From assembly GCA_002869385.1 (NCBI GenBank), contig PKTB01000024.1:623990-687989 (forward strand): a DNA stretch of 64,000 nt. The letters are read 5' to 3'. The DNA is from Marinilabiliales bacterium (lineage in GTDB: Bacteria; Bacteroidota; Bacteroidia; Bacteroidales; ML635J-15). Shown piece after piece: positions 211-53,020 of this stretch; position 1 is the stretch's first letter; each line of letters starts with the position of its first letter. The translations under genes and the position numbers were made by a program. The notes under the pieces are model-generated. The model did no database searches, was not told the origin of the DNA, and worked only from the letters and a program-made list of their open reading frames with translations.

Positions 211-3200
211 CTATTGTGTTATTACCATCTTTTTATATTCAATGATCTTATCTTCTACCATAAATCCGTAATTGTAGATGCCCGGGGCCCAGTCATCAGA
301 AATAATTTTAAGGGTATTTTCTCCCTCATTCAAATCATAGATATCAATAAGTTTCCCATACATATCATTAACAATAACTCTACCTTGCATTCCTTCGGGC
401 AGGTAATAATTAACAAGGGTTTCTTTTGTAAACGGGTTCGGGAAATTATCCTCAATCCAGGCACCGGTTTCAGGAACAGTGAATTCTATATCCTTAACAA
501 GTGATGACATATTCCTGTTTTGCATCTCAACACATTCCGGCACTTCTATTCCATATAAGATGTATAATACGGACTGTGCATTTGCCGTAGTGTAATCGGG
601 CGGGCATTCGTATGCCTTTTCTCTTATAAAATCAAGTTGGGCACTGTCCATATCATAAATTGTTTTGCCTTGTTCATACAAAGATAACAAAATTTCGTGA
701 TACTCTATCCAGTCGGATGTTTCCTTATCCACAGGATCAATTGTATTAATGATCTGTTGAGCTTCGGTAAAATCACCTTCCGATATAAGATTTGCCACAT
801 ATGTCCTTGTAAAATAAGGATCATTTTCGGCAATAAGAATCTCGCTGATATAATCGGGCCTGTAATATGCACTGTCTGTTAATAGAATTAATATTCTGTT
901 CACAAGTAACTCCCTTTAGCGGCTCCAGTAGTTTATTTGCCTTTGTATTGCTGTTTCGGTTAAAGTATTCGGATTATATGCCTGTAAGGCGAGTAGCTGC
1001 CTGCTTATCCCTTCGGGTAAAGTCTCTGATCTTGCATAAAAATATGGTTCAACATTTTTGCTTACAGGCAAATTCATTTCCATTACATTTTTAAAATTAC
1101 CATGCGAAAGAGGATAATCTATGAGTAAGGCGATTATGACAGTATCTGACAGGGGCGAACTTGCAACGAGCTTGTTTTTTAACTGCCCATTGGGCATACC
1201 CTGTTCAATATCCGATAACAATTCGTATGTTATCCCGTTGTCCTTATTGTTCCCTGCCTGTTCGAGGTCATATTCCAGATTTTCGATCAGGTCCAGGATA
1301 TCGTGGCGTATGGGTATGATATCTTCCACAGGAGGCAGTTCAGTGTCGGGATCGTCATTGGTAAAAGGGATTATCCATGGGTCTGATACAACCGGGCATG
1401 CAATAGTATTTTCATCTTTATCAAAGCCCAGAGGCTGCATTGTTATTATATCACTGTCAGGATGCAATGTCGGAGTTGTCCGCACATCATTATGATGAAC
1501 ATAGTTGTATGTATTATTTGTACTTGTATACAAATATCTCGACTCTACAGATGGATTCATAGGATTGACTCCATCAAAAAATTCATTCCCTGCTCCCCAG
1601 GTCTGCTGAGGAGTACCTCCCGGGTAAAATCCCTGGTCACCCAGTGTTCCACTATTTCTGAAATTAACCGTGTACATTGATCCCGTAATATTATAACAAT
1701 TATTACATTTTAACCTAAGTCCGGAATTATCAGATGTTGTAAATATATTTTTATCACATTGAGTAAAATAATTACCTCTCCAATCATCATGAGCTTCAGA
1801 CTCACCTGCCCTGATATCGGATGTCTGAGGCCCGCTGGAGCTTACTCTAATTCCTGTGTTCAAACGCATGAAATCATTTTCCTGGATAATAAACCTGGAG
1901 GCTCCCAAAGTAAATATCCCGTAATTTGTTTCATCCTGAATTGTACCAGGTGTTCCGAAATAATTATCCCTGATACGGTCGAGTATTCCTCCCCTGATAT
2001 AAATATATGCACCATGCACTCCGGGCTGCCCCGGTATATTTGAGAAATAGTTTTCTTCTTCAATCCTGTGCGAATTGTTTACTGTATTTATAGTATTAAA
2101 TATCCTTATACCCCAAAATGCATTATCAAATGTTGATCCGGTAACAGCAAACCTGGAGTCGTAGGACTCAATACACATTTGTTTATTCTCAAATGTATTT
2201 TTATTCATTGTAACCATTAATCTTTGGTTTTGCATCCAGATTGCCTGAGGTGAACGTTGTTCCAGATTTGAACCTGCTGCCCATGGGTTTCTTGGATTTG
2301 CCATAAGAGGATTTCCGCTATACGATGTGGATGGGCCGTAAGAATCTGTATATGTACTTAGATATCCCGGGTCTAACAGTGTTGTACAAGTGAAAGTACA
2401 ATTTGCAACATCACTTGGATTGATATATTGTTCATTATTAACCGTACGGACAAACTTAATATCAGTTCCATTATTATTAAATGTAACCCCAGAAGCTTTA
2501 ATTATACCGCAACTTGATTCAGTATTAAATGGTACAAACATTGGATCCATATCAGGATTACAAACGTAATCTTCATTTCTTTTACCAAGTAATACTCCAA
2601 TATGTGCATTTTCAATAATGTTATCACTATCTGTAAAAACAACTCTACCTTGACCATTTTCAGGCATACCGAATTTTCCCCAAACTTCAATTCCTTGCCA
2701 CATAGCTCCTGGCCCATGACAAGACTGATCACGATGAGATGACATTTTTGTCGCAAAAACGATAAGTTCTCCACCATCATGTACTGTAATTCCACCTTGT
2801 GTCCCAAAAACAAGGTCGCATTTGTATAATGTTAATGAATGTCCCGATGGAACAATAATTTGTCCTCTGATATCTAAAACCTGATCTTCCCATAGTTCAC
2901 TGGTTTCTGTCACAACATAATCCTCAAAAAATCCCGGTGACCACTCTTGCTCTATACAAAAACATCTTTTAGGATACACATATAATGTTTTACTTGTTGT
3001 ACTTACACATTCCTCTCGACTCACAATTATTGAAGCACAATAATATCCATAATATTCATAATCTACCAGTACCTGTGGTTCAGTTGAGGTTGTTCAATTG
3101 CCTAAATCCCATTCATATGTATAATTTTCCCAATCAGAATTTATTTCGTCTAAAACGAGCTGAGGGTCAAAATACGAGTTTCCTATTATATCTAAATTTA

Positions 3201-6135
3201 AGCATGGTTCAGTAACATGAAATTCAGCTGAAGTATTATAATTTTCAACTATCCCAATTGTTTCGCCGCTACAAGTATTTTCAGCTGTTACTGTTACAGT
3301 ATATTCACCCGGCTCCAGATTCTCAATAGTTTGTGTTATTTCACCATTTGACCAAAGATATGTAAATGGCCCGTCAAGATTATCAACATTTACTGTTAAA
3401 ACACCTGAGGCGTCTCCATTACAAACATAATCTCCTGCAATTTCAGGAATAGGGCTTGTACTTGCATCAATTATAAATTCATCTGTAATCTGACAATCAA
3501 ATTCATCTGTAACAGTTAAATAATATGTTCCCGGAGCTAAATTATTTATATCGGGTGAGTCAGGTAAAGATCCGCTCCAATTATATATATATGGTATTTC
3601 ACCCCCTGTAACATTAACAGAAATCGATCCATTATTAGAATTATCACATGAATTTGTTACAATACTTGATTGTAATTCAATATTACTCTCTGGTACAAAG
3701 ATTGACGATTCTGCAGTACAATTGTTCTCATCAGTTACAGTAACAGTATATGTCCCTTCTTCATTAATAAAGATTGTTTGGCCGGTTCCATCATCACCCC
3801 AGTTATATTAAATCCCTCCATTTGCTGTCAGAGATGTTTCCTGCCCGTTACAAACAGGGTTGCTGTCAAAAGAAACCTCAGGATTGTAATAAACAGTTAA
3901 ATAACCTGAAGCTGTTGCTGAACATTGAATTTCTCCGTAGTCGAATGTTACTGTTACGGTATAATCTCCTTGCATATTTGCCTGTATAATGCTCAATTCC
4001 CATTCATTACTGTCCGGTCCATAACCATTTGGCCCTTCCCATTCATACGAATCTGTTGCTGTTGTTATTTCAGCAGAAGTGCTAAAAACGACATCATCAT
4101 CACCGATGCATGCATACTTATCTGTTACATTCGGATTTGGTAATTCGAAAACGGTAATTGTTATTTCATCAGTTGCCGGGCAGGGCCCATCAAGAGTATA
4201 AGTTATAATGTGTTGCCCGGCACCTGCAAGAGCAGGGTTAAAAATACCGTTAGGGGTTACACCATTGCCAGACCATGTTCCACCGGGAGTGACCGCACTT
4301 AAATAATCAGGCTGGTCATTTAAACAAAAAGGTTCATGTTGAAGAATTGTTGGATCTGAAGTTTCTAATATAGTTATATAAACCCTACGTAAATGGCATA
4401 ATTCGTATTCAGCATTAAGTATATAAGTGCCAGGATTATGTTGGCTTGGATCAAACTCTATGATTTGACCATAAGTAGGGTCATCAGTTAAAGTAAAATT
4501 ACAATCATCATCTATTTGTGGTTCATTACAATAATAATTATTATCAACTACATCTCCATCTTCCCATTCTTGATCCCAAATTGTACAGTCTCCACACCAC
4601 CAACTTGCAAAATGTGGTGCTAGCGGATTGTCGTCATAAATAAAAAATGGTTCATCATTCTGACAAATAAAATAATGCTCAGCTGTTGCTGTTCCAATAG
4701 TTGGCTCAGGTGGCGACCATTCTATTTCTCCAACATATGCTCCATGTGATAAATCAATATCTACAGTAATTTCAGGGCTTACACAATCTCTATCAAAATT
4801 AAAGCTATACGGCCCTGCCCAATAACTTAATTCAGTTCCACAGTTTGCATTAATATAAAATTCATACTCTGTATTTTCATCAAGTCCGGAAACTGTTACA
4901 GAATTATCTGTAGTTTGTATATAATTTACCATCCAGTTATCATCCAGAGGGTTTAGATCTTCAATACCAACAGCAACATTATAAGTTACTCCGCCCGGGC
5001 CATCCCATGACAAGGTGTGACTGGTTGATATTCCTTCGGTTGAGCTTAAATTTGTTGGTTTTGTACAGGTAGATGAAACCAGTATTGCATCACTAAACTC
5101 AGATGTATTGCCATATTCATCTGTTGCAGTTGCAATCAAATGATCATAGCTTGTTGTTACACTTAATGACCAGTCTCCGTTTTCATCTGTTTGAACTGTT
5201 CCGAGATATTCATTTGAATTTTCATTTCCGGTACTTCCGAAAACTTCAATAATATCGCCGATTTCTCCGATCCCGTTTATTGTTCCTTCCTCATAACTAA
5301 AGATTATCGGGGATTTTTTGGAATTGTTTGAGCCATTTTCATACAATAAACCCATTGTATTGTCATGAATTAAATCTCCTGAGATTTTAATTCTTTGTGC
5401 ATTACTTAAATAGATCCCGGTGTAACAATCATAAATCTCATTATTCTCATTTTCATTTGTTCCACCGACATAACAAAAGTCAGAATCAAATATTGCAATC
5501 CCGTAGTTATATGGCCCGGGAGTAGGATTACCTTCTACTGATGCATTTAATATATTGTTCATTATTGATACATTATTGCATCCCATTAGGCGTATCCTGT
5601 TAAAACCAAGCTTACTGACATTGTAATTTGCATTTGGTAGGCTTATGATATTTGAAGATATCGTTGCATTAATACAATTATATAAAACCACTCCTGCAGA
5701 TGTGAATCGATTCATCCTGAAACCGCTTATTTCAATTCCATCAACATTATATGCATAAAATGCCGTTGCAATATTGTTCTGGCCGTCGATAATTATTGCA
5801 GGTTCGTTCTCAATATATCCTGGCTGACTTGTACCATCAATACTTACACTGTTTGTAATCTGAGGAAAATAGTATCCAATATTTATTGTATGTGGCCCCT
5901 GATCAGGAATATTAAAAACGATCTCACACGAACCTTCGGTATCATTTGATTTTCTTATCGCCCATTGTAGCGTTCCGTACATTTCGGATGAACAAAGTGC
6001 ATCATCGAAATCATAAGGATATACATAAGGATCAGGATCTGTTGTTTTTGTAACTGTGTAAACAGTTTGTGCATTACTGTAAAAGCTTGCCAAGCCAAAA
6101 ATAATGCTTAATAAAATATATCGTAAGTTTTTCAT
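211..6135 (-). pseudogene. Giant secreted multi-domain surface protein (parallel beta-helix, Ig/FN3/HYR-like, SprB/PKD-like repeats, second beta-helix, T9SS type A C-terminal domain) interrupted by three in-frame stops
   Basis: ORFs 3808..6135, 916..3024 and 211..903 share one frame. Translation of 3025-3807 in that frame is clearly coding (e.g. FTYLWSNGEITQTIENLEPGEYTVTVTAENTC; YTYEWDLGN*TTSTEPQVLVDYEYYGYYCASIIVSREEC). Stops: TAA 3808-3810, TGA 3094-3096, TAA 916-918. The C-terminus NPFTKETLVNYYLPEG...KKMVITQ is T9SS CTD-like. Confidence 0.8.
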
Positions 6136-6152
6136 TTGTCCGGATTTTGAGA

Positions 6153-7116: not shown

Positions 7117-10100
7117 TTATTTGAAAGCAGCTTCATATAATCCCGGTCCATCTAGAGATAGGTCGTCAAAGTATGATGGCACTTCTTTTCCGGTTAATTT
7201 ATCAACATAAAGCTTCGCAAGATATTGACTTAGCATAAATCCGTGTCCACGTAAACCAATCATCAGTCCTTTATCAGCATCAACTATATACCTTGGCTCA
7301 ACATAGTATCCCGACCAAACAGCCTGGAATCCCACACTGGACAATTGAGGAATCCAATCAACAAAAATCTCCGAAACTATCTCCATGAAATCTTTACTGT
7401 TAATTCTCAGGTCTTTATCTGTTTCCATAGGATCAACAGCAGGAGAAGCACATCCAATAATCTGCCCAGTTTCTGCTAATTGCTGACCGTAAACAGCTGA
7501 AAATCCTTTATATTTTCTTCTATCGATAAGCATATCCAATGTGCTATTATCTTTTCCAAGCATAGGAAGACGTCTGGTAATAAATGCCTGATGTTTTACC
7601 GGATATAAACCTGTTTCAATCCCAAGTTTTTTAGCGAACTTATCGGCTTGAGGTCCCAAAGCATTAACAAAATGTTCTGTTTCGTATTCAACATATTCGC
7701 CGGTATGAAGTTTAACCAAAGCAACAGTATTACTACCTTCCTTAAAAAGATCAATAAGTTCGCAATCTTCGAGGATTTCTCCACCATTTTTTAATCCAAT
7801 CTTTCTAATTAAATCAATTGTTCTACCGGGTGTTGCTTGCCAACAGTCGTGTGTTATCAATGCAGCATTATATGTATTTAAATTTGGATTAAAGTATGGA
7901 GATATTTCCTTAACAAAATTATTCTTTTCAACCAAATATGCATCAGACCATGCTCTTGAGGCATCAAGTGCTTTGTATGTTTCTTCATCATGAGCAAAGG
8001 ATATATATCTGATAGCTTTATAATCGATATTTGCAATTTTCTGAAGATCTTCAAATATTTCACGATTTTTTAATGCGATATCAGCTAATGCCGGTAATGA
8101 AAATGCCGGGCGTCCACCTGCAATATTTCTCCAGGATGCTCCTCTGTCTTTATTTATCAATACAGGTTTTAAACCTGCCTCAGCCATATATCTAAAAACA
8201 GAACAGCCGGCCATACCTCCACCAGCGATTAGTGATTGTACTTTAATTCGTTTATTTTTAATCTTTTTAGTATTTGTATATACTCTTTCTGAGGTATGGG
8301 GTAATAATTCTCCCATTGAAACCTGATTTGAAAGAGGTGCTCTAGGAGTCGCATCTCCGACAATTTCAATATTATATGGCCCTATAGTTTGCTTAAGCCT
8401 TTTGATACACCTTTTACCTCTACACGCTCCCATTCCCAATCGGGTTGTGTGTTTTATTTCATCAATAGATATAAACTTTCTGTCGCCTATTACATTAAGA
8501 ATTTCGTCAAGTTTAACATCATCACAATGGCATATATACGTTTCTGAAGGATGTTTCTCAGTAGATTTACTAATTTTAACCTGTTCCGGAAATTTGTCTT
8601 TAATAATAAATCCTCTTGCTTTTGTAAGTTCTTCACCTGAAATATCAAGTGCTTTTACACGAGCAACATTTGTTTTATTAGGTTTTAAGAGTATCTTTTC
8701 AATTACCCCTTCGCCAACTTTTTTCCCATTATTATCTACTAAAAACACTTCATCACCTTGATTTGCTTCATATTCAATAGGTAAGAATATCCAATTCTTT
8801 TTCTCACTATATCCAAAAATTGCAAGTCCGGGACATTGATATACACAGTCCATACATCCCACACATTTCTCAAAATCAATTTGAGGAACTGTACTAGTTG
8901 ATGTTTTTGTAATTGCTCAGTGAGGACACGCAAATTCGCAAGGGTTACAAGCAAACCCATAAAGACAATCTATCAACACATAAGGTTTTGCTTCAGCACG
9001 CTCACGAGAAGGTTTAAATGGTTCTTCGATAACTCTTGTCGGATGTTGTTGAGAATCTATATATTCTTTTGACATCGCAAGATAATCATCATAGTTATAC
9101 CTTACACCCATTGACTCCAATACTTCGTAAGCTGCCTGTTTTCCACGTAATACAGCACTTGTCCCCTCTCCGATTCGTAAAGCGTCACCTACAGCATGAG
9201 CATTTCGACCAAACAGAAGGCTTCCTTTAGTCATTAGCTGATCATCTGCAACTAAACCTGTACATATATTAATAGCATCAATACCTTCAATAATTTGCTC
9301 TGTACCAGGAATTGGTTTAAAATTCTCAGATTCTGCAATTACAGCCCCAATAACACCTGTATAATCTTCATTTGGAATAGCTTCAAGAAGAATATAACCT
9401 GTCATTACAGGAATTCCTAATCTTCTTACTCTGTTTGCTTGAACAGGAAAACCACCTTCACGAGGCATTGCCTCAATTATTGCTTTTACATTAGCTCCGG
9501 CCTGCATTAATTGATATGAAGTAAGGTATCCTATATTACCTGCTCCAACAGTCAGAATGTTCTTACCTAGGAGGGTAAACTCGTTATTCATCATTTTCTG
9601 TATAACCGCAGCGGTATATACACCTGGTACGTCATCGTTTTTAAAACTTGGCATAAAAGGGATTGCACCAGTTGCGACGATTAAATGGTCTGCCTGCACA
9701 TAAAATATTTCATTTGTCTCAATATTTTTTACTGCAACTTTCTTTTCTTCAAGAATATCCCAAACAACGGAATTAAGCATTATTCCATCTCTATTTTCAC
9801 CGGCTAGTGTTTCAGCAATCTCAAAACCACGCATACCTCCAAATTTCTTTTCCTTTTCGAAGAAAAAGAATTGGTGTGTCTGCATTAAAAACTGACCTCC
9901 TATTTTATCATTATTGTCAATAACAATGTTTGAAACATTATGCTCATTTAATAGCTCGCGCGCTGCTAATCCAGCAGGTCCTGCACCAATAATTGCGACA
10001 TCTGTTTTATATATTGATATTTCAGTATCTTTTTTATTTAATTCTATATCAGGTTGGTAATCCTTAGGAATTTCTTTTACCTCTTTAACATTATCAACTT

Positions 10101-10347
10101 TAGTAATACAAATTCTTTTAATTTTACCGTCTACCAACATTTCACATGCACCACATTTACCAATACCACATTCTAATGAACGATTTCTATTATCTAATGA
10201 GTGACTATGTACCGGAAATCCAGCTTGATGTAATGCAGCAGCAACTGTAAAACCTTTGTTTCCAATTACTTCTTGCCCGTTATAAATAAATATAATCTGA
10301 TCTTCCTGAGTAACTGTCAGAATAGGATGCTTATCAATTTTTTGCAT
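7117..10347 (-). pseudogene. Fused multi-domain FAD/Fe-S oxidoreductase (HcnA/B/C- or sarcosine-oxidase-like: 2Fe-2S + pyridine nucleotide-disulfide reductase-like + 4Fe-4S + BFD-like + DAO) interrupted by one in-frame TGA
   Basis: ORFs 8917..10347 and 7117..8862 are in the same frame. The intervening sequence reads CLYGFACNPCEFACPH*AITKTSTSTVPQIDFEKCVGCMDCVYQCPGLAIFGY. Motifs: ECGIGKCGACEMLVDG (2Fe-2S), DVAIIGAGPAGLAA, CHCDDVKLDEIL...CRGKRC (BFD-like), VQSLIAGGGMAGCSVFRYMAEAG (DAO). Confidence 0.82.
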
Positions 10348-11420: not shown

Positions 11421-12962
11421 TTATCTTTCTTTCCAGAAGAATATATCTTCTCTTTTCATTGTTCTGATATAATCATACCAAACAAAATCCTTTAATGTAA
11501 CCTGTTCATTTGTAACTTGTTCAATAGGTATAGTTTCACCATCAGGCTTCTAGTAGAACCAGATTTTCTCAATCTTATTATCATTAAGGTGTATGGTCAT
11601 ATTACTACTCACAACCTTATTAAGGGCAATTATCTCATTGATTTCTTCATCAACCACAAAATAAACTGTCTGACAATCATTTAATAGGTCTACTTTTTTA
11701 ATTTCTTTTTCTATTACATAACCAGTAATTTTACGACTCTTCATTTGATTAAAATGAATAGAATCATACTGTTGTATTGCAAATGCATTATTCTCAAGAT
11801 AAAACTTATCAGGTTCCTTATCCACAAAATGTACGATTATTTTATCTGCCAGAATCTGATTTTCTTCAGACCAAACAATTGGATCATAATAAAGTTCGAC
11901 TATTGAATCTTTTGACATAAACACTAAAGAATCACACCTAGCCTGCACATCTGTTTTATAAACTTGAACTTCGTAAAAAGCCCTAATAAGTCTATGATCG
12001 AGACTATCAACTGATATATACACGGTATCACAATGCATAAATAAGCTATCGCCATCAGTAACATATATTACTTCTGTACTATCTGTCATCATTGCATTTT
12101 TAGGATTTTCATAATAGTACCCATAATTTCCATATGCGATAAGATTTTCAGCAGTATCAATAACTGATACGTTGTTAAAACCTTCCCCAAAACGAATTTT
12201 CCTATCGTAGTAAAGGCTATCCCCCCTTAAATAATTCGGTCCGGATCGCAACCATGCATTTTCGGAAAAGCCGGCAACGTCAGTTCTAGTATTATAATAA
12301 CCATTTTCACAATAAATAACATTAGAATCTGCGACAATATGTGTAGGACCATAAAAATATGAAATTGCCGAATCAGTATTGTATCGTAAGGTATCTGAAA
12401 ATATATCATATTGAGGATTTCTCAATACAACTGTATCCACAGCATAATAGTCTTTATCTTTTGTAAAATAATAGCCCCTACGTGAAGTAAGTTTATTGTC
12501 ACCATCAAATATTCGACCTCCTTCAAAATAGTAGGCCATATTCTCATTCCTGTCATAATCGAGAGAATCTGTAAGTAGCAATGATTCCCTATGTTTTAAT
12601 ATCACAGAATCGCGCATTTTAGCAATTTTAGTATTGCCATCATATTCAAGGTAATTACCGATTAGTAAAATAGTATCTCCTTGTTTTATTCTCACGTTGT
12701 CGTATGCTTCAATAGTATTAGATTCATCATATAAATATGCAGAATCACAAAACATATATGCATCTTCATGCTTAAAGACGACCTTGCCTAATAATTTCTT
12801 TGCTTCTGTACCTGTTGACTCGTCATATTCAAGACTATTAGCATGAATAATTTCTACCTTTTTAGGAGTATCATCATACTTGTCTTCATCCTGCGCAAAA
12901 ATCTTGACAGAAATCAAGCAGAAAAAAGCGAGTAGTAATATTACAGCAAGGTTTTTGCTCAT
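11421..12962 (-). pseudogene. OstA/LptA-like LPS export protein, C-terminus separated by one in-frame TAG
   Basis: ORF 11550..12962 has OstA-like repeated strands. After TAG (11550-11552) the same frame continues KPDGETIPIEQVTNEQVTLKDFVWYDYIRTMKREDIFFWKER to TAA at 11421-11423, a typical family ending. Confidence 0.78.
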
Positions 12963-16143: not shown

Positions 16144-18894
16144 TTAATGATATTTACTTTTCAACAACAGACTCACAATAAAAATCAAACCAATAGATAT
16201 TAGAATAAAAAATAAACTATAGTGATATATACTGACGGTTTTATTAAAGATGCTTTTATAAGGACTGAAAATTAGATTATTTTTCATATAATACGGTGGT
16301 AGATATGAGCACATATATTGTCTCATGAGCTTACCATCATCAATTAAAATCTGTTGAGAATAATAATTTTCAACTATATCAGATAAATATTTATTGGATT
16401 TTCTGTTATTATCTACTAAATTATGTTTCGAGAGCTTATTTAAGGCCCCTGCCCTAATCTTTTGATAATAATCTTCAAGGTTTATCAGAGTATTTTCTAG
16501 ATCATTTTCATTGTAAATAGGAAATTGCAAATTTATATTGCTTTCATTTTCAATTATGCGTTCAGCATTTACGGAGTCACTTTTTGCTATATCCTTTAAT
16601 AAAGGTATAAAATAATCAAGATAATAGACAGATTCGTAATATACAATTCTATCCTTGAAGGTTAGATTTTCTTTATCCTCAAATGTGTAAAACTCTACCA
16701 TTAATGCATTAAGGGCATGATACGAAACTTGAGTATTTGCTATAAACATAGCTCCTTTATTGCTCTCACCAAATATATCTTTATTAAAATGGTCAAACTT
16801 AATAATCACTCCAGTAAAAAGCATGTTTACTATTATTACTATTGGGATAATTAAATTAACTAGGTTTGTATGTCTTAATAATACAGATAAAAGAATTCCA
16901 AAAGATGATCCCCAGTAAATAAGCAATACAGAAAACAATAGTATTTTATATGAAATAAATCCTATTTCTAAAATATATACTGAAGGTAGAATCAAAATTA
17001 GCCCTTGTACTAATGATATGGAAAGAAATTTAAAAAGAGATGCTATAATTTGCGAATAGTATTTATTTTTAAGATAGTATTCATTGATTCTAAATTCTCG
17101 CAATTTTATAAACTCGTTGCTGGAACTTAACATACCTATAAATAGAGAACTTATAACAATCATGAATAACAATATTGGGATATTAGGATTCATAGACATA
17201 TTATATTCTATGTTATCAGAATATCGTGAAACCAAGCCTAAAACTAAACCTATAATTAAAGGTACAAATAACAAAAATGCTGGTCTTTTGAATTTTTTAA
17301 TTTCAATTTTATAACTTAATTTCAATTCCGAGAAGAAAGATTTAAAACAATTTAATTTAAGACATCTTTTATCGATAGTTTTTGTTGAATTCTTTTCTTT
17401 CGCGTGATTAAACATTTCACTTGATTTGAACTCCTTATACCAGAAATCTTTTTCTTTTGTTTTTGTGTTATTTAAAATATTTAGCAGCACTGATGGATTT
17501 TTGCTAATTTCCAGAGCAGAGTTTTTATCTACTCTATCTGTAATTTGCCGTAGATATTCTGAAGCTTTTAAAGCAGGACCGTAAAAGACCGGATAAGCAT
17601 TATCATCAAGAATCAGGATTTTATCAAATAATAGAAGGCTTTCATAATATGCCTGATGAACTGATGCTATTACGATCTTATTAAATGAACACAATCGTTT
17701 AAGCATTGATAATAATTGTATTGTATCCTCAGAACTTAAGCCACTTGTATGTTCATCAAGAATAAAAACATCAGGCTCGGAAATAAGCTCTGTTGCAATA
17801 GCAAGTCGTTTTTGCTGACCTCCCGATAATTGTGCATCAAGGCTTGAGTTATTGAATGCAATTTTATTTAAATGATAAGAAATGCCGGTTAATTCTGCTA
17901 TTTTATCAATTATTACAGAATATTTTGATTTTTTTATTTGCAAGAATTCACATCTTCTAACTAATAATTCTTTTGCAGTAAAACCTGGAATAAAAAAACT
18001 ATCCTGAGCTAATGATGCAAAACTAATAGATGCACTTTTATCAGTTGACTTAATTGCAAAATCACCAGTATATTTCTTTTCCCTACCGGATATTATATTT
18101 AAAAGACTGGATTTCCCCGAACCACTATTCCCAATCACACCAATAAACTCACCAGAAACAATTTCAATCGAAATGTTATTAAGAATGTTTGTTTTGTTCT
18201 TGACTAGTGATACATTATCTAAATTTAAACAGAATTCGACACTATGTTTATGAGATAAATCTGAAATTTGATCACTAAAGAAAAGTTTTCTTTGATCTTT
18301 TAAAGCTATCACAGATTCTTTTAATGCATAACAAATTGAACCATTTTTAACCTCTACAGAATCAATTAAGAAATTTTCATGAGAAATATTCTTTAGAGCA
18401 TACACGCCATTACTAAATTCAATAAATTCTGCATAAGAGTTATCCTTATCATTAATTAGCTTCAATGACATTTTATCTGTTCCTAGAAAAAAATCAAGAA
18501 GTGAAATTACTCTATCCTCAGCAATTTCATAGATTTCACCGACCAATTTAATAAACTCTGATGAATCATTTAAGTCATCAGTTTCATGAATCAGCCTTAT
18601 TAGATTAAAAATTATAATAGAACGTTCAGTTTGATTAAGATTCTCTGCTGTCTCTTGGCAGAATGAAATTAACTTCACAGAATTTAGTGATAATTTCTTT
18701 TCGGAAACGGAAGATGAATATTCTTCAAGATAATTCTCAAATAAAACAAGAAAACTGTTTACATATTTAGCTTCAAGATAATCTTCCAGAAATGATTTAA
18801 AACTGCGCATGATAGATTTTGTATCAGCAGCAGCTTTTCTATTAACAGATATTGCAAATAACTTAATAAGTGCATTAAAAGTATGTCGGGTCAT
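16144..18894 (-). CDS. ABC transporter, ABCG-like half transporter (ATPase + permease fusion) with an extra N-terminal region
   Basis: Walker A GVIGNSGSGKSSLLNIISG, signature LSGGQQKRLAIATELISEPDVFILDEHTSGLSSED, C-terminal TM segments. Confidence 0.87.
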   Translation of the reverse strand: MTRHTFNALIKLFAISVNRKAAADTKSIMRSFKSFLEDYLEAKYVNSFLVLFENYLEEYSSSVSEKKLSLNSVKLISFCQETAENLNQTERSIIIFNLIRLIHETDDLNDSSEFIKLVGEIYEIAEDRVISLLDFFLGTDKMSLKLINDKDNSYAEFIEFSNGVYALKNISHENFLIDSVEVKNGSICYALKESVIALKDQRKLFFSDQISDLSHKHSVEFCLNLDNVSLVKNKTNILNNISIEIVSGEFIGVIGNSGSGKSSLLNIISGREKKYTGDFAIKSTDKSASISFASLAQDSFFIPGFTAKELLVRRCEFLQIKKSKYSVIIDKIAELTGISYHLNKIAFNNSSLDAQLSGGQQKRLAIATELISEPDVFILDEHTSGLSSEDTIQLLSMLKRLCSFNKIVIASVHQAYYESLLLFDKILILDDNAYPVFYGPALKASEYLRQITDRVDKNSALEISKNPSVLLNILNNTKTKEKDFWYKEFKSSEMFNHAKEKNSTKTIDKRCLKLNCFKSFFSELKLSYKIEIKKFKRPAFLLFVPLIIGLVLGLVSRYSDNIEYNMSMNPNIPILLFMIVISSLFIGMLSSSNEFIKLREFRINEYYLKNKYYSQIIASLFKFLSISLVQGLILILPSVYILEIGFISYKILLFSVLLIYWGSSFGILLSVLLRHTNLVNLIIPIVIIVNMLFTGVIIKFDHFNKDIFGESNKGAMFIANTQVSYHALNALMVEFYTFEDKENLTFKDRIVYYESVYYLDYFIPLLKDIAKSDSVNAERIIENESNINLQFPIYNENDLENTLINLEDYYQKIRAGALNKLSKHNLVDNNRKSNKYLSDIVENYYSQQILIDDGKLMRQYMCSYLPPYYMKNNLIFSPYKSIFNKTVSIYHYSLFFILISIGLIFIVSLLLKSKYH

Positions 18895-24612: not shown

Positions 24613-24903
24613 TTATGAAGGATAATAGAAAATATTCTCTATTTCATAACCTGTCTTTGGAGACCATAACAAATCCGCCACCAAGTCTTGTCCACGAGTA
24701 AAATCCTGGTGTTGTGGTATATAATCAACGTATATCCTTATTCTGAGCAATTGCTTTTCTTTTGAAATATTTGTTACCTCTGCTCGTATTTATTTGGCAA
24801 TAAGCTTATCAGTTTTATCTCTTGCTACCAAATTTGTGTAAAATTGAGGGTCTGTCTTAGCGAATTCTATTGCTTCGATAAGTACCTTTGACGGAATATT
24901 CAT
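24613..24903 (-). pseudogene. Small conserved-looking protein (about 96 aa) interrupted by an in-frame TAA; absent from the ORF track
   Basis: My translation: MNIPSKVLIEAIEFAKTDPQFYTNLVARDKTDKLIAK*IRAEVTNISKEKQLLRIRIYVDYIPQHQDFTRGQDLVADLLWSPKTGYEIENIFYYPS*; TAA at 24790-24792. Confidence 0.6.
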
Positions 24904-24975: not shown

Positions 24976-25437
24976 TTATTCTCTTATTCCATATATATAA
25001 TAATTTGACCCTCCACCAAGTCCACCTAAACCTGTTATGCTGAACGAGATAGAATCAAGCCCAATAAATTCACCCTGTTGATAATAATGATAGCCAATTT
25101 TATCAACTAGTTTTCAATTATTTTCAACTAGAGTAGTAATCACACGATAATCTGCAAATTTAATTGTGATTGAGCTATCTGGATTTTGTGTACTGTCATC
25201 ATCTTCATAATACATATCCGCATCAAGATCAGCTGTTTCAAACTTTCGAATATATCCGTGGTAGTATGATGTATCATTATGAGAACTTTCCATTGTCCAA
25301 CTATTTGATATCACTTTAAAATAAAAATTACCAATATATTCTTCGCGATAATCTTTTGAAACTTCTTCCTTGCAGGACACAAGTACAATTGTAAGAGTAG
25401 CAAAAATAAGGGCTTTATATATTTTGATTAATTTCAT
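24976..25437 (-). pseudogene. Small lipoprotein interrupted by an in-frame TGA
   Basis: ORF 25114..25437 (lipobox LTIVLVSC). Same frame continues after TGA (25114-25116) as KLVDKIGYHYYQQGEFIGLDSISFSITGLGGLGGGSNYYIYGIRE* to 24976. Confidence 0.65.
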
Positions 25438-28491: not shown

Positions 28492-30441
28492 TTAATTAAT
28501 ACTGATAACTTTAAATTCTGTACGACGGTTTTGAGCTCGTCCTTCATCTGTACCATTATCTGCTACAGGTACTGAGAAGTCATAACCTTTATATGCCAAT
28601 CGATATTTTGATATACCCTGTGAAATAAGATAATCATAAACAGATTTTGCACGATTAGTTGATAATGTCTGATTGTATTCCTTTGATCCAACATTATCAG
28701 TATGTCCACCAATCTCAATTTTCATGCTTGGATTATCATTCATATACTGAACAACTTTATTCAATTCGGTATATGATTCTGGTAATAACTAAAATGAATT
28801 AAATTCAAAGAAAACATTTTTAAGAACAACTGTGATATCATCCTCAATTGGTTGTAAAGGAATGTTCATAATATATGGTTGCGAAGGGTCTTCTAAGTCA
28901 GTAAGTGAGAAATTTTCAGAATAGAATAAATATCCCGGTTTTGAAACATTAAATGCATAATCTCTATCAACAGGAAGACATACCATATATTCGCCTGTAC
29001 CTTTCTCCGACATTGTATTAACCAAGACTTCTGCTGATTATATATCTAGCATTTCGCAGCTAGCCTCTAATCTTTCATTAGTTTTAACATCGTATACATA
29101 TCCTTTGACGTAGGTAACAGTAACAGGTTTTACTTCTTCCGGAATTTCAAAATAGTAAATATCAAGGTCTCTTTGTCCACCTGATGATGCAAACATTGCA
29201 ATATCACCTTTAGCGTTAACAATCAGACTTCGCTCTTCTCCATTTGTATTAATTGGATAACCTACATTAACTGGTGTTCCCCATTTACCATCATCTCCAA
29301 GACGGGAATAGTATAGATCGAAATCTCCCATTCCGGGAAAACCGTTTGATGCAAAATATAGTGTTTTACCATCGGGATGAATAAAAGGAGAAAGTTCTTC
29401 ATATTCTGTATTAATTTCCCCTCCTAAGTTAACTGCAGGTTCAGAAGCAATACCATCTTTATCAATTTTTGCCATCCATATATCTGTTTTCCCATTACCT
29501 CCTGAACGTCCACTGGAAAAATATAAAGTTTTGCCATCTGCGGAAAGAGAAGGGTTACTATCCCAGGATGCAGAATTTACAGTAAAAAGATTCTGAGGTT
29601 CAGTCCAAGTCCCATTCCTCAGGAACATGATATAAAGATCACAAGAGCCTACTCCGCCTGGACGATTACATGCTGTTATAACAACTGTCTTACCATCTGC
29701 TGATACACATTGGGCTCCTTCATTTAAACGAGTATTTACTGTTCCAGGCATTGGAATTGCATTGTCGTATTTACCTGTCTCAGGATTACGAAATGAAACG
29801 AATAAATCTTCATGCATACTTTCCTGAGATCGAGAAGGATTATCAGGATTTAATGGTATTTGTCTTGTGAAAACAAGTACATTTTCATCAACAGATAAAG
29901 ATGGCCAATATTCATCAAAATCTGTATTAACACCATCTCCTACACTAATTGGTTCAAAATTAACAGGATTCTGATAAGCACTATCAGCAAAATAAATATA
30001 TCTGCGCAATCTGTCTGTATCGTAACGTTGATATTTAGCCACGTCTGCAGTTTCATAAAATGCATAAATATATTCTTTTGCAATAGTATATTTTCCGAGT
30101 TGATATGAATTAATGGCTAGTTTGAAACTTAATGCCGGATCATATGCAGGATCAATCTCAAATACTTTAGCATAATTCTCAAATGCTTCGGCTGTTTCAC
30201 CCCAGAAGTCGTGAATTTCCGCTTTTAAAAGATATGCTTCAAGAAATCCTGGATCCTTATTTATTGCTTTATTAACTTCATTTATAGCCAAACTCTTTTG
30301 GCCTCTTTCCATATATTCAACAGCTCTATTAAAACTTTTAATTGCTGATTTGTTTTTAGTATAATTTGATTTGTTTTGTGCTACACATGAAACACTAAAC
30401 ACCAAAACAATTAAAGCCAGTATTATTTTAATTTTTCCCAT
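28492..30441 (-). pseudogene. TPR/PD40/OmpA-family outer membrane protein interrupted by two in-frame stops
   Basis: ORFs 29038..30441, 28789..29025 and 28492..28764 lie in one frame. The joins read ERLEASCEMLDI*SAEVLVNTMSEKGTGEYMVCLPVDRDY and VFFEFNSF*LLPESYTELNKVVQYMNDNPSMKIEIGGHTDNVGS. TAA 29038-29040 and TAG 28789-28791. Confidence 0.87.
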
Positions 30442-34146: not shown

Positions 34147-37100
34147 TTATCTTAAAAGAGTTACATTTCCTTTATGATTATATTCCTCTCCGTTAAGACA
34201 ACGAGCTTTTAACCAGAAAACATAGACGTCTGTTGCAAGTTTTTCTCCCATATAAGTACCATCCCAGCCTGGTGAGTCCAAATCAGTTGTTTCATAAATA
34301 ATATTTCCCCATCTGTCAAATACTGCAAAATATACATCCGTCACAAGAGATAGTGGATAATATGGTTTAAATCTATCATTACTTCCATCAGAGTTCGGGG
34401 TAAACGCATTTGGCACATATAAATATGGATCTCCACATACAACTTCTTTAACACGAATATAAACAGTGTCTAGTGCTTTACAGTTATTAGCATCTCTAAA
34501 AACGACTTCAAATAGTGTAGAATCTTCGAGTATTGCAACAGGGTTTGGTATCTCATTATCATTTAAATAATCTCCATTATTCCATCTATATGAACATGTC
34601 AAACTTGATTGAGCAAGTAAAGCTACTTCTTCCCCTGCAAAAACTTCATAAGAACTAGCTGTTGCATCCAAATCAGGCACATAACCTTCATTTATTATTG
34701 TAAAGTTTTCAGTTAATTCGCAATCATTTGCATCCTTTAATACTATTTCATAATCACCTTCACAAAGTTCATCGGTAAAATTTTGCTGACTTCCACTACT
34801 CCAATCGTAGTAATAAGGTGGAGTTCCCCCCTCAACATTTACTGATATTCGTCCATTACATACATTATTACACAGCATATTTTGAATAGATGTATCCATT
34901 AATAATTCAGGAGGTTGGACCAATTCAACGTAAGAGTAGTCTACACATTCATTTGCATCAACAACTGTTACCAGATATGTTCCTGCTTCTATTTCAAGCA
35001 ACTGGTTTTCATCACTACCATCTGACCAAATATAAGTATATGGCTGTGTTCCTCCACTAGTTTGCAATCCAATATCACCTAATTCACCATAACAAAGTAT
35101 CTCATTATTTATTACAGCATTAGCAATTAAGGTATCAGGCTCATATATATTCATGAATTGATGCGACACACAATTGTCAGAGTCAAGAATTGTGACAGTG
35201 TACGGTCCTGCACAAAGGCTTTCAATATTTTCAGAATTTCCACCATTTGACCAAGTATATGAATATGGAGGGGTTCCTAATTCAGCTGATACAGTAATTG
35301 AACCTGTACATTCTCCATAACACCTAATAAGGTCATAATCAATAATTTCTGAGATCAATGTTCCAGGCGGTGGCATATATATTGAGATAATTTCCTCACA
35401 ACCATTGACATCAGTTACTGTAACTACATTATCACCAACTAAACAATTATTATTTGTTTGCATGGTTCCACCAAATTCCCAATCATAATAATATGGATAA
35501 GTACCACCCTGAGCTTCAACCGTTGCTGATCCATAACCTACTCCATCACATTCCGGCACGCTAACATTAATAAAATCTGCAATTAAATCGGGCGGTTCAA
35601 TTACATTTACAGTAGTTTCAGTAGTACATCCTAAATTATCTTCAACTGTTACTGTATAAGTATCGGCGCATAATTCTGATATTTCGTACGTATCACCACC
35701 ATTGCTCCAAGAGTATGAATATGGAGGGATTCCATTTGCTGAAACACTAGCAGATCCAAAACAATCACCATAACATAGATTATGAGAAACTACAGGAGTA
35801 TTAAATATTATCTCATCAATACTAACTGTTGTTTGATCTGTTGTAGTACAACCCATTTGATTGGTAATTGTAACGTAATATGTTGTCTCTGTCGATGGTC
35901 CAACTAGAGGAGAATTTGTAGTTTCTCCACTTAGAATCTGAGCTGTTGGTTCCCATGAATATGACAAATCATCCGATGGATTTTGATTTGTAATAGTAAT
36001 ATTTGTAGTATTTCCAGGACAAATAATTGTTGTAGGTGAGACATCATAATTAAATTGATGTATACTTACAGTTACTTGTTCTGTTACAAATGTGTTACAA
36101 ACATCTTCCTGAGCTCTTACATAATATGTTGAATTTGAGCTTGGGGATACTGTTACATCTGTTGTAGTCGATAATGTGTTTGAAAAGCTAGGATTTGACG
36201 ACCATTGCCAGGAAGTTACATCTCCTGTTGTACCAGCATAAAGATATGCTTCATCTCCTTGACATATAAGAGTATCACTACAAACAATAATATCTATATC
36301 AGGCTCATACAGCTGAACAGTTTGCCAGACACTATCAATACATATTCATGTTGCTACAAGTAAATAATCAGTCGTCTCATCAGGACTTGCCACCGGATTT
36401 TGAATATTGTAGGAATTTAAATCTGTACCTTGTACCCATTGAAAAGTTGTACCTTCAGGGTAATCACCAGCGGGTCCTATAAGCGTACTTCCTCCAGGAC
36501 AAATTTCTATTGGGTCTAATGATGTTTCTCCCGGTTCAACAACATTGATTACTCGAGTTATTGTATCATAAAAATTACAACTTGCAGGATCACCGACAAT
36601 TAAACTTACTGTATATTCACCACCTTCGGTATATACATGGTCAGGGTTAAATTCTGAGGAAGTAGGCGAACCATCACCAAAATCCCAAATAAAAGTTTCT
36701 CCCTGAGAATTATTATTAAACTGTACTTCGTAAGGAGCACAACCAACAGGTATTGGGTCAAAGTTTGCTTGAGCTAAGTTTTCAATAATTCGAATTTTGA
36801 ATACTGCATTATTACAGTTTGTTGCATTATTTGTTGTTGACCAAACACCCGGATTAGGTTCAGTAGGAAATTCCTGACATCCTCCACAACTAGCGCAAAC
36901 TGACTGAATTATATGACCTTTTTTATCAAATCTACTTGTTCCTCCATCTACATGATCATGACCGGAATATCCACAACTTGTATAGTGTACTTCACCAAAA
37001 TAGCTGGCATATTCCAAGGTACTTGCATCTTCACTCAAAACAAGAACATAGAAATCTTGTCCGTCTGTTTCAGTTTGTAATGCATCTGCGGTTAGTGGCA

Positions 37101-39231
37101 TATTTTTAGTACCGTAATCTGAATCCCAATTATAATAATCGCCTTGCGCATTATAATAAGAATATGCCCATTCTCTACCCCATCCAGATAAATAAACCCT
37201 ATTACAGACATCAACCGCAAATGCAGTAATAGAGATATTTGGACGACCGTTTCCACTACCAAAAACTGTTGACCATTCAAGTGTGCTTAAATCGTTATTG
37301 AATTTTGCAATAAACTGGCCACTATTAGGCACAGAGTAACCTGCATTATGTATCAATGTGGTACCACTTGCTTTTGTTTGTCCGCAAACAAATATATTAT
37401 TTAGTTTATCTGTTCGTACAAAAAATGCATTATCATAAACATCTGAGCCGAAGAATGTGGATGCTAGTAATATATTTCCATTCATATGAATTTTGGAAAC
37501 AAAAGCATCTGTTGATCCCCCATTGTGTGTATCATTATATACTCCAGATGTTGTCGGAAAGTTTGCTGACACAGCACCACCGGCAACTATAACATCTTCA
37601 TTCTCAGTTAAGCTAAGACTAAATATTGCATCGTCTTCATCACCTCCCATGTATGAGCTCCAAATCATCTGTGACAGGTCAGGGTTTAGTTTGAAAACTA
37701 TTCCATCCTGTCCTCCACCACTAATAGTTTGAAAACCAATATTTATACCAAGAGGAAAATCATTTGAGAAAGTATTTGTACCAACATAGACCATATCCTT
37801 ATTATCGACAATAACTTCTCCTCTTGCTCCGTCCCCATAATTAAAATAAATAGAATCGTTTCCATGCATTGAAACATAGTTTATATTAGTAACTGGATCA
37901 GGCTCACTAAAATGCATTTGATAGTTCAATCCATCATTACCACTTCCTCCTACATAGGTACTACCAAGTAATGATGTCCCATCTTCGCTAAGTTTAGTGA
38001 CAAATATATCGACACCATCATCAAATCCTATAACATTATCATATACGATACTATCTCCTCCTCCAAAAACTGTCTGGAATGCATTAAAGGACACAGGAAA
38101 ATCAGGAGAACCTGTTGTCCCCATAATAATTAGGTCATTATCTTCACTCACAACAAGACTATGGGGCATTTCTTGTCCATTTGCTCCACCCAAATATGTA
38201 GCATATAATCTTGTTGAACCATCTTCGGTATATTTAATAATACCTACATCACATCCATCTTGATAGTAGGTGCTTCCTGCTATTGGTGGAGTTCCACCGG
38301 CAAAGCTAATTTGGAATGATCCTGTTGTAGTAGGATACCCGATAGCGAAAACAATACCACCAGAATAAACATTATCATCATAATCCCAGGTAGCTGTAAA
38401 TCCCCAATTATCAACGGTTGATCCTGTATACGTTGAAAAAATAAGTGAGGGGTCTATTATCAATTGCTTTGTTTTATCATAATCTTCATTTATCTCAAAT
38501 GCTACTTTATTGCGTTTTAAGATATAGCTACATTCAATTTCAACAGTATCTCCATTAAATACCTGATATGCAAATGGCTTAAGCTCTTTGACAGAGCTAA
38601 CACTTGTATTAACAATTAAGTTCCCATCTTCCAATGCAATATTATCAACCCCTTCATACTCAAAAATAACATCTCTGTAATCTGCTCCTGGATTGATGAT
38701 AATGTCGTACTTCATACCTTTATCGGTTGAATAAAAATCTAAATCAATCCCATCGTAAAGGTTAATATATGTGACGTCAAAGTACTTACCAACATATGAT
38801 GCCCATTTAGAAGGATCATTTCCTATATAGTAATTGTTATAATCTCTGGTTTTATCATTTGCTATAATGTCTGGGGTTTTATTTGCCCTTAGAAAATGCA
38901 TTTTATAAGCATGCCCTTGATTTTTTATAGTATGTGCATGAGTTTGTTCTTCAGATCCATTATGTGCATGTGAATAATTATGATCATCAGGATTAATAAA
39001 ATTATATGTAATGCAAGAGTTTTCAAGAAACATTGCTCCGTTTCTCATTTCCATTTTATAAAGAACATTTTCATGCCATTGTCCTTTATTTTCAATAAAT
39101 TCAAATTGTGCAAAAGCATTGTAATTACACAATAAAATCAAGAGAAATACAAGAAGAGTAAAAAATGTCTTATTTTTCATATGGTCTATGGTATAATTTC
39201 CTGAGTATAAAGATACTAATTTTTTAAACAT
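34147..39231 (-). pseudogene. Giant secreted SBBP-repeat / PKD / SprB-like adhesin with T9SS type B (gliding-motility-type) C-terminal domain, interrupted by one in-frame TGA
   Basis: ORFs 36346..39231 and 34147..35967 are one frame. 35968-36345 translates openly (ICIDSVWQTVQLYEPDIDIIVCSDTLICQGDEAYLYAGTTGDVTSWQWSSNPSFS...). TGA at 36346-36348. C-terminus YVPNAFTPNSDGSNDRFKPYYPL...DRWGNIIYETTDLDSPGWDGTYMGE. Confidence 0.87.
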
Positions 39232-47368: not shown

Positions 47369-47385
47369 AGTGGCTTTTATTTTGG

Positions 47386-47508: not shown

Positions 47509-47517
47509 AATGCAAAT

Positions 47518-48657: not shown

Positions 48658-50231
48658 TATTTGTTTCCTCCTTCATTTTCAGGGTTTGCAGGGCCTGTTT
48701 TAATAAATCTGATCATTATACTTACCTCTGTAATCAACAATGCTGTAAAAATAAATGCAAATATCCAGAAAGTTAATTGTACCGATGAGCTACTGATTTT
48801 TGTAACTCCGGCACTAGTTGTCATTAAGTCCTGAATTACCCATGGTTGACGCCCAACTTCAGCAACAATCCAGCCTGCTTGTGATGCAATAAATGCCATT
48901 GGAATACCAAGTATTCCTAAAATATACAATAGCTTAGAAAATTTGAATGTTTCAATTTTATCTTTAACTGCAAACCATCCAAATATAAGGAACATCAAAA
49001 CAAATAAAGTTCCAAGAATAACCATAATATGGAAGCTGTAGAAAACCATTGGAACATTTGGAACAATATCCTGTGGTTTTTCAACATAAGAATACCCGAA
49101 ATGATCAAAATTTGCTTCCAATAATGCTAATTGTTCAGCGGCAGCCTCTTCATTTCCTTCTTTTTTAAATTTCTTATAGGCAATTAAAGCATCCATTGCT
49201 ATATCGCCCCTATCCATTCGTTCAGCTGTGGACATAATACCATTTTCAGGATCTCCTTCTATTAGCTGATTTATACCAGGAACATATGTCTTTGTGTCCA
49301 TATCTATTAAAAAGCTGAGCATACCTTTAAATCCAAACTTAAACAGGAATGGGTCTTCATCATTATCTACAGTTTTCTTAGGATTTAAAACGCCAAAACC
49401 TATTAGTTCTGCTTCTTGACCACCGTCATAAAGTCCTTCCATAGCAGCTAATTTCATTGGTTGATGCTTCGCAACTTCAACTGCTGAACCATGGCCGGTA
49501 AATATTAAAGCCATCACCGAAATAAAACCAAATACTGCAGAAATTACAATACTTCGTTTTGCCATTAGTGACTCCCTCTTTCTAAGTAAAAAATATGAGC
49601 TTACTCCAATAACAAAAAGAGCAGCCAGAGTGTATCCACTTGTAATTGTATGTAAAAATTTATTTATTGCAACAGGAGATAAAAACACATCCCAAAAATT
49701 TACCATTTCATTACGAGCAGTATCTGGATTAAATTGCATCCCAACCGGATTTTGCATCCATGCGTTAGCAACTAAAATCCATAGTGCTGAAAGGTTTGCT
49801 CCGATTGCTGTTAACCATGTAGATGCAAGGTGAAACTTCTTACTTACTTTGTTCCAGCCAAAAAACATTACTGCAATAAATGTACTTTCAATAAAGAAAG
49901 CCATAATACCTTCTATTGCCAAAGGAGCACCAAAGATATCACCTACAAACCATGAATAATTAGACAAGTTTGTACCGAATTCAAATTCTAATATTAAGCC
50001 GGTTGCTACACCTATTGCAAAATTAATCCCAAAGAGTTTCATCCAAAACTTTGTAGTTCTTTTCCATTCCGGATCACCAGTCTTTACATAAATTGTCTCC
50101 ATTATGGCAATTATGAATAATATACCTAATGTTATAGGCACAAAAATCCAGTGGAACATTGCCGTTAGAGCAAATTGAGCTCTTGACCAGTCAACAAGAG
50201 ACGGGTCAATGTTTAGTAATAGTTGTGTCAT
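48657..50231 (-). CDS. cydA: Cytochrome bd ubiquinol oxidase subunit I
   Basis: DWSRAQFALTAMFHWIFVPITLGILFIIAIMETIYVKTGDPEWKRTTKFWMKLFGINFAIGVATGLILEFEFGTNLSNYSWFVGDIFGAPLAIEG. Confidence 0.96.
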   Translation of the reverse strand: MTQLLLNIDPSLVDWSRAQFALTAMFHWIFVPITLGILFIIAIMETIYVKTGDPEWKRTTKFWMKLFGINFAIGVATGLILEFEFGTNLSNYSWFVGDIFGAPLAIEGIMAFFIESTFIAVMFFGWNKVSKKFHLASTWLTAIGANLSALWILVANAWMQNPVGMQFNPDTARNEMVNFWDVFLSPVAINKFLHTITSGYTLAALFVIGVSSYFLLRKRESLMAKRSIVISAVFGFISVMALIFTGHGSAVEVAKHQPMKLAAMEGLYDGGQEAELIGFGVLNPKKTVDNDEDPFLFKFGFKGMLSFLIDMDTKTYVPGINQLIEGDPENGIMSTAERMDRGDIAMDALIAYKKFKKEGNEEAAAEQLALLEANFDHFGYSYVEKPQDIVPNVPMVFYSFHIMVILGTLFVLMFLIFGWFAVKDKIETFKFSKLLYILGILGIPMAFIASQAGWIVAEVGRQPWVIQDLMTTSAGVTKISSSSVQLTFWIFAFIFTALLITEVSIMIRFIKTGPANPENEGGNK

Positions 50232-50448
50232 TCTGTGAGGTTTTTATTAATTCATTTATTACGTGTTCACTTCTCTGTTCGTCTGTTTCAAAATTCTTTT
50301 TAAGGTGGTTAGGGAAGAATATAAATTTAACTAATACAAATACCAGAAATCCTTTAAGAAGGATTATAATCCACATTTGTCTTCCCCATTTTGGCATGGT
50401 TTTAAATCCTTCGTAGTAAAATTTGAAAATATTTTTAAGTATTCTCAT
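50206..50448 (-). CDS. DUF4492-like membrane protein
   Basis: 80 aa, ILKNIFKFYYEGFKTMPKWGRQMWIIILLKGFLVFVLVKFIFFPNHL; immediately upstream of cydA. Confidence 0.8.
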   Translation of the reverse strand: MRILKNIFKFYYEGFKTMPKWGRQMWIIILLKGFLVFVLVKFIFFPNHLKKNFETDEQRSEHVINELIKTSQNDTTITKH

Positions 50449-50451
50449 ATC

Positions 50452-51537
50452 TTATTTTATTCTATTTTTAAAATGTACAGGATCTCCTAGTTCTCCGTAA
50501 CCGACTGTATCTCCAGCCTCAGCAATTTGTTTCTCTAATTGGGCAATATAATTATCAGTTTCAGGAACAATCTCCGGTTTACCTTTATACAAATTATATG
50601 ATGAATGATACTTTATAGGAGTGATATTTGGCATTATTACATTTGCTCCTACACGAATTCCTTCTTCCCTGCCATCAGGATTTACTGCCTGTAAAGCTGT
50701 TGCCGAGGCAATATTTACATCTTTCATAAGAATACGTAACAAAGCAATCATTTTTAGGGTTAATTTGTAACGCTCTTCTAATGGAATCAATTCATTTTTA
50801 TACTCATAAAGTGGTGTATCCTCATGCTCAATATATGGACCCATACCACACATATCAATATCTATTTCCTTCATAAAAAGCAAGTCATCAGCTAAATCTT
50901 CCAAAGTTTGAAAAGGAAGTCCTATCATTACTCCTGTACCGGTCATATATCCGGCATTCTGTAAGTCAATTAAAGCTTGCTTTCTTTTTTGAAAATTATG
51001 TAATTCATCTTGAGGATGAATTTTATAGAACAAATCTTCATTAGATGATTCAATACGAACCAGATATCGGGTCGCCCCGGCTTCGTGCCACCTTTTCAAG
51101 ACTTCAGGTGTTTGTTCACCTAAAGAAAGAGTTACACCTATTTTATCTTTTGATAAGTCTGTGATTTTTTTAAGAAGTTCTTCTACTCTGTCAACAAATA
51201 TCTTGTCCTGTCGCTCACCAGCCTGTATAACAATGGAACCCCAATCTCGGTCCAAGGCATACTGACATGCTTTTAGGACTTCTTCATCAGTAACCGTATA
51301 ACGATGTACATTCTTATTGCCTCGTCGAATTCCGCAATAAAAACAGTTTTTCGAACAAATATTAGAAAGTTCTATTAAACCTCTGAAATAAGTATAGTTA
51401 CCAATATATTTCTTTTTAACTTGAGCAGCTTTTTTAAAAATCAACTCGGTATCTGCCTCATTTGCAGATAATAACACAACTAAATCCTCTTTAGTTAGAT
51501 TTTCTTTTTCAAGAATTCTTGATATAGTTTCCTGCAT
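50452..51537 (-). CDS. hydE: [FeFe] hydrogenase H-cluster radical SAM maturase HydE
   Basis: LIELSNICSKNCFYCGIRRGNKNVHRY, GERQDK, SLGEQTPEVLKRWHEAGATRYLVRIESSN. Confidence 0.92.
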   Translation of the reverse strand: MQETISRILEKENLTKEDLVVLLSANEADTELIFKKAAQVKKKYIGNYTYFRGLIELSNICSKNCFYCGIRRGNKNVHRYTVTDEEVLKACQYALDRDWGSIVIQAGERQDKIFVDRVEELLKKITDLSKDKIGVTLSLGEQTPEVLKRWHEAGATRYLVRIESSNEDLFYKIHPQDELHNFQKRKQALIDLQNAGYMTGTGVMIGLPFQTLEDLADDLLFMKEIDIDMCGMGPYIEHEDTPLYEYKNELIPLEERYKLTLKMIALLRILMKDVNIASATALQAVNPDGREEGIRVGANVIMPNITPIKYHSSYNLYKGKPEIVPETDNYIAQLEKQIAEAGDTVGYGELGDPVHFKNRIK

Positions 51538-51632
51538 AATATTGATATAACAATACCAAATTTAAACAATTATAATTACAAAATGTTTAGAGGTGACTGA
51601 TTTTTTTTTCGACAATTCTTAACTTGTTGATT

Positions 51633-52181
51633 TTAAGGTTTCTCTGGATCGAAAAAACTAAAGTGAACACTCCCATATTTTTTTTGCATCAAAAAATGTG
51701 GAAAATCACTGAAATTATTTTTTGATGAATGTTCTATTATTAAAAATGATGTATCCGACAATAAATTATTTTCAAATACTGATTTGTATATATCTTCTAT
51801 ATTTTCCATATCATATGGAGGGTCAGCAAATATCAAATCGAATTTTTGTTTAGTAGTTTTTAAATATCTAAAAACATCTGATTTAATAACTTTTGCCTGC
51901 TCAAATCCCATAAGTTTTAATTGCTTGTCAATATAGGCATAACTAGCATAATTGCTTTCGATAGCAACTAATGATTTAACATCACGACTACAGAACTCGT
52001 ATGAAATATTACCGGTACCACTAAACAGATCTAAAACGTCAATATTCTCAAAATTAAAAGAGTTATTAAGGATATTAAATAATGCTTCTTTAGCAAAATC
52101 GGTAGTTGGTCTGGCCCTAAAATTTGAAGGAGGAATAATTGTTCTCCCTCTATATTTTCCACCAATAATACGCATTAGCAA
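51633..52181 (-). CDS. rsmD: 16S rRNA (guanine(966)-N(2))-methyltransferase RsmD
   Basis: MRIIGGKYRGRTIIPP...RPTTDFAKEALFNIL, DLFSGTGNISYEF, FADPPYDM. Confidence 0.93.
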   Translation of the reverse strand: MLMRIIGGKYRGRTIIPPSNFRARPTTDFAKEALFNILNNSFNFENIDVLDLFSGTGNISYEFCSRDVKSLVAIESNYASYAYIDKQLKLMGFEQAKVIKSDVFRYLKTTKQKFDLIFADPPYDMENIEDIYKSVFENNLLSDTSFLIIEHSSKNNFSDFPHFLMQKKYGSVHFSFFDPEKP

Positions 52182-53020
52182 ATATTTAAAAAGTTATAGA
52201 AATAGTGAGGCGCTGTTTCCTGAAACTTATAGAAATACTTGTAATAAGGATTTTGAGATTCAAAATAAACAATCTGTACAAACTTTCGCAAATTCAATAT
52301 CGTAAGATTATCTGTTTCAATTAATCCGGAAAATCCAATACTTGTTTCAGTTTGTGACAGTTTTAACTGCTCAAAAACGTTTATAATGAAATATAAAATA
52401 TCATTATTTGTTTTATAGGAGAAAGTGTTATAAAATTTTAACTCTGATTCTTTTAATACGATAATCTCTATAAAATCATCAAATACCTGAACAAACATTT
52501 TTCCAATATCTGAATCTTCGGCAATCTTATTCTTTTGGTAATGATTTTCTATAAATGAGTATGATTGAGGAAATACGCTCATCAATGGGAAGTGCTTTGA
52601 TATCTCAGAATATAAATTTTTATTCACAGAATAGATTAACACATTACATGATTTTGGCATGTTGCATACCAATATTTTCTCATCCTCGGTTTTATTAAAG
52701 TTCAATGCAAATATTTCTTAAATGCTATCTTCGTGATATAATGCTTCCGGGACAATTGTTGATTTCCTGCCGGCAAAAACAATATTAACACTCTTATAAT
52801 TCTTATTCAGAATTTTTTCTTTTTCAAGCATCTCAATACACTTTGAAACATATAGATCTGCCTCTGAATTAAATTTATCTGAAACTAATGTATAGAATCG
52901 TTTTGATTCATCGTGGTATAAAGAATAAGAAAGTCCATCCTGTGTAAACAGAATGGACAATGTTAATTCCGAAGAATTTATATTCTCAATATCTTTATCT
53001 TTAAGACAAAGGGATTTCAT
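52175..53020 (-). pseudogene. DUF3822-like protein interrupted by one in-frame TAA
   Basis: ORFs 52718..53020 and 52175..52705 are in the same frame; join reads IVPEALYHEDSI*EIFALNFNKTEDEKILVCNMPKSCNVLIYSV. TAA at 52718-52720. Confidence 0.75.

Follow-up and report, generated by a model that had tools for sequence, protein, structure and literature searches.

Eleven in-frame stop codons interrupt genes in the window, a stretch of 64,000 nucleotides corresponding to positions 623990-687989 of contig C18 in the assembly of a Marinilabiliales bacterium, and they raise the question of whether a living lineage could carry these interruptions, whether the stops are translated, or whether they belong to the sequence record rather than to the organism. 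All eleven were verified on the minus strand at the coordinates given in a preliminary description of the window, and homologues in public relatives, which are Bacteroidales metagenome-assembled genomes, were used to identify the residue expected at each stop.

The eleven stops in the window

TAA, 916-918, minus strand: large surface-type protein gene (211-6135); Glu in both homologues found, sense G>T
TGA, 3094-3096, minus strand: same large surface-type protein gene (211-6135); Gly in both homologues found, sense G>T
TAA, 3808-3810, minus strand: same large surface-type protein gene (211-6135); Ser in the two nearest homologues
TGA, 8917-8919, minus strand: ferredoxin/FAD oxidoreductase gene (7117-10347); Gly in 25 of 29 homologues
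TAG, 11550-11552, minus strand: close to the end of an OstA-like gene; all 11 homologues have Asp or Glu
TAA, 24790-24792, minus strand: small unannotated ORF; stop present
TGA, 25114-25116, minus strand: small lipoprotein-like ORF; stop present
TAG, 28789-28791, minus strand: PD40/OmpA-like gene; the nearest relatives have Glu, most others Asp or Glu
TAA, 29038-29040, minus strand: same PD40/OmpA-like gene as 28789; Glu in the nearest relatives and in most others
TGA, 36346-36348, minus strand: DUF7948/PKD gene (34147-39231); Gly in both homologues found
TAA, 52718-52720, minus strand: DUF3822 gene; Asn in the four nearest homologues, Glu in most others, ambiguous

The interrupted frames are intact elsewhere. 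The frame of the ferredoxin/FAD oxidoreductase gene is open in all relatives, the frame continues past the equivalent of position 11550 to the C-terminus in all 11 OstA-like homologues, and no stops were present across the relatives' best matches to the PD40/OmpA-like gene. The claim that every stop lies one G-to-T change from a Glu or Gly codon held at seven sites. At 3808 the homologues carry Ser, indicating that this stop arose from a sense C>A rather than a G>T change, and stops derived from Ser codons by C>A were also found elsewhere in the assembly. The tally over the eleven is therefore seven backing sense G>T, one sense C>A, one ambiguous (52718) and two without homologues. These last two stops, 24790 and 25114, lie in two small candidate ORFs without known homologues between window positions 24700 and 25120, for which a search of the genomes examined returned no match.

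Stops across the genome and in conserved genes

The assembly comprises 4.25 Mb in 28 contigs, with an estimated completeness of 93.35% and contamination of 6.77%. It was scanned by codon usage for strict run-on stops, defined as stops flanked on either side by strong coding in the same frame and lacking an ATG nearby. The scan returned 79 such stops in 816 kb of the assembly (9.7 per 100 kb), occurring on most contigs sampled, compared to 3 in about 660 kb from ten genomes of the same genus, a pattern far beyond chance. The 79 stops were divided among TAA, TAG and TGA as 48/12/19, closely following the 49.6/11.3/18.1 predicted for G:C>T:A changes and failing to fit the prediction for C>T; codon usage alone would place a sense G at the origin of 69% of them. 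An A>T origin would give a similar mix of stops and was excluded by the substitution-class test described below, in which T>A nonsense changes numbered zero. Apparent stops at L119:17303-17408 were dropped, as they are located in a tRNA cluster.

Conserved genes are interrupted as well. A survey of 45 conserved genes (12,603 codons) found 8 internal stops and 0 frameshifts in this genome, and the same survey of eleven relatives pooled (about 100,000 codons) found 1 stop and 0 frameshifts, so the preliminary description was right in reporting no frameshifts. The interrupted genes include rpoC, nusG, rpsK, eno and the gene for EF-G; in rpsD the stop falls four codons ahead of the gene end, and lysS, gyrA and valS (at two positions) are interrupted when compared with one relative. 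Both the rpoBC-nusG and the S11/S4 region are present in one copy in the assembly, and rpoC, nusG, rpsK and rpsD are single-copy genes with stops; EF-G was left off this list because a paralogue exists on contig C19. The contamination estimate, given only 28 contigs, may partly reflect double counting of marker genes that false stops have divided.

Outside protein-coding genes, the gene for a tRNA-Gly (L119:17225-17298), one of a cluster of tRNAs, differs from the relatives by a G:C>T:A change at 17287, consistent with errors that extend beyond coding sequence. Contig C28 (4120 bases) carries only the 16S rRNA together with a truncated 23S rRNA; a 16S match was found in only one of 25 relatives searched, giving too few sites for comparison.

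Substitution class, selection and sequence context

The class of the changes, and whether selection had acted on them, were assessed at positions invariant in both base and residue among relatives, where changes unique to this genome were counted. For C>A (including G>T), missense changes were present at 43 of 6324 opportunities and nonsense changes at 6 of 968, which are equal rates, while the relatives pooled showed 104 missense changes in 50287 and no nonsense change in 8149. That nonsense is as frequent as missense indicates that the changes have escaped selection. At the same invariant positions, nonsense changes by way of C>T, C>G, T>A and T>G were all zero in this genome, including 0 of 397 opportunities for C>T, which bears out the earlier remark that C>T nonsense is missing. 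T>A and T>G missense changes were mildly raised without accompanying nonsense, as a longer branch would give. Overall, this genome has 52 unique C>A changes to 38 unique C>T changes, whereas the ratio of the two is 0.2-0.45 in relatives with at least 25 unique C>T changes. The G:C>T:A specificity proposed from the window is therefore borne out, as nonsense comes from this class only and the excess is confined to it, as an artefact of this class predicts. In the sense direction the 52 changes comprise 30 G>T and 22 C>A.

The changes amount to a layer affecting about 0.5% of G/C positions, or some 7,000 sites across the 4.25 Mb. At this rate about 13 stops are expected in the window, close to the 11 listed from it, and the eleven stops are a small sample of genome-wide changes that include missense and sense C>A changes.

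Sequence context was examined in the 49 changes at conserved sites, a set that contains some ordinary substitutions, each read as G>T. A G followed the changed base in 24 of them, where 10.7 were expected, and a T in 2, where 13.7 were expected; the context TGG occurred 16 times (4.6 expected). Oxidation of guanine favours the 5′ G of GG, with the exact triplet varying with the oxidant (PMC12390751), and this oxidation-prone context, expected of an 8-oxoguanine-type artefact, is the one found here. The enrichment of a 5′ T seen at conserved sites was absent at the 79 run-on stops (38 observed, 36 expected). Strand orientations of the changes were mixed, with no runs; damage to a single strand copied along long molecules was rejected, since strand runs are absent.

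Origin of the changes

Given these results, the stops very probably form part of an unselected, genome-wide G:C>T:A layer in the assembled sequence that does not represent a viable lineage, with oxidised guanine read as T as the most likely source. Guanine in the sampled or processed DNA would have been oxidised to 8-oxoguanine, a chemistry suggested by class and context; sequencing would have miscalled the 8-oxoguanine as T, and errors in single molecules would have been written into contigs because depth or polishing was presumably too low to outvote them. Behind this reading stand the observations that the changes belong to one class, are blind to selection, are spread over the whole genome, put stops into essential genes, come without frameshifts and share a local context; they favour the suggestion, already made from the window, of oxidative damage or base-call error in the assembly. 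The results do not tell misread 8-oxoguanine apart from a bias of this class in the base calling of the platform. Against an artefact, contigs reach 754 kb, which is hard to reconcile with a depth low enough to retain errors, except with unpolished long reads; the lack of strand runs and the missing 5′ T enrichment at the 79 stops are further points against an oxidised-guanine artefact. The known artefact of 8-oxoguanine in sequencing (Costello et al. 2013, described in PMC12390751) shares with the changes described here the G>T/C>A class, the absence of selection and the bias towards the 5′ G of GG. It differs in that, as described there, it is known as low-fraction noise in variant calls from deep data and its most cited context is CGG, whereas here the changes stand in the consensus of metagenome contigs and the leading context is TGG.

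The same substitution class would be produced by real mutations in a hypermutator lineage without the GO system (MutY/MutM); a MutY/MutM/MutT-type mutator was among the causes offered in the preliminary description. The search for these genes seems at first to favour it, as an over-threshold MutY was found in none of 19 genus members searched, compared to five of the remaining twelve genomes from the order, and MutM was found in none of the 31 genomes searched; the genus members' weaker matches to MutY presumably represent endonuclease III. By this search, the clade lacks both enzymes of the usual GO repair pair. However, the relatives that lack the same genes are clean, so the absence is a property of the clade and no mark of this genome, and the check for mutY and mutM suggested from the window is not distinctive. 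A hypermutator would also be expected to show the trace of purifying selection, and nonsense here is as frequent as missense. Changes blind to selection in the core machinery of transcription and translation, with stops in single-copy rpoC, nusG, rpsK and rpsD, could not have been fixed in any living lineage, and we consider a hypermutator very improbable. The absence of MutY and MutM may allow lesions to persist in the cell, which leaves the stops in essential genes unexplained. Errors in the sequence record or damaged DNA, rather than mutations of a living lineage, almost certainly account for the changes.

Damaged DNA could also have been present before sampling, in relic or dormant cells whose DNA was oxidised in the environment, the lesions being real in the molecules and never inherited. 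In ancient environmental DNA, an excess of G>T and C>A has been put down to in situ oxidation (PMC13370429) and, as here, affects both strands; this strand symmetry and the clade's lack of MutY and MutM both fit. Oxidation there accompanies C>T deamination, the usual mark of old DNA, whereas C>T is not in excess here, and normal sequencing depth should outvote random lesions, making this origin unlikely. A related version is likewise unlikely: the assembly would be a faithful copy of individual genome molecules that had been strongly oxidised in dormant or relic cells of the MutY/MutM-less clade. If true, it would preserve, in environmental bacteria, a natural archive of 8-oxoguanine that was never repaired.

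Two further readings have next to no probability. Reassignment or suppression, by which the stops would be translated as amino acids, is suggested by coding that picks up in the same frame directly past the stops, and readthrough had been proposed on the basis of the window. Yet all three stop codons are involved, the residues in homologues vary (Glu, Gly and Ser, with TAA replacing Glu at some sites and Ser at others), and G:C>T:A missense changes are equally frequent; no suppressor tRNA was found in 36 sampled stretches, which contain few tRNAs. Ordinary pseudogene decay of dispensable genes could be entertained for the window, where several of the genes encode large surface-type proteins that are possibly dispensable, but the 0 frameshifts, the single class of nonsense, the involvement of essential genes and the intact frames in relatives make it scarcely credible.

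Misread oxidised guanine, the reading preferred here, would have consequences for how this genome is used. A literature search found no report of such a pattern in metagenome assemblies. The genome serves as a species representative, yet about 1 in 200 of its G/C positions appears to be wrong, so that intact genes will pass for pseudogenes, spurious missense changes will be called and marker genes will look split. Comparing the rates of G:C>T:A nonsense and missense changes at positions invariant among relatives is a simple test that could be used to screen other assemblies.
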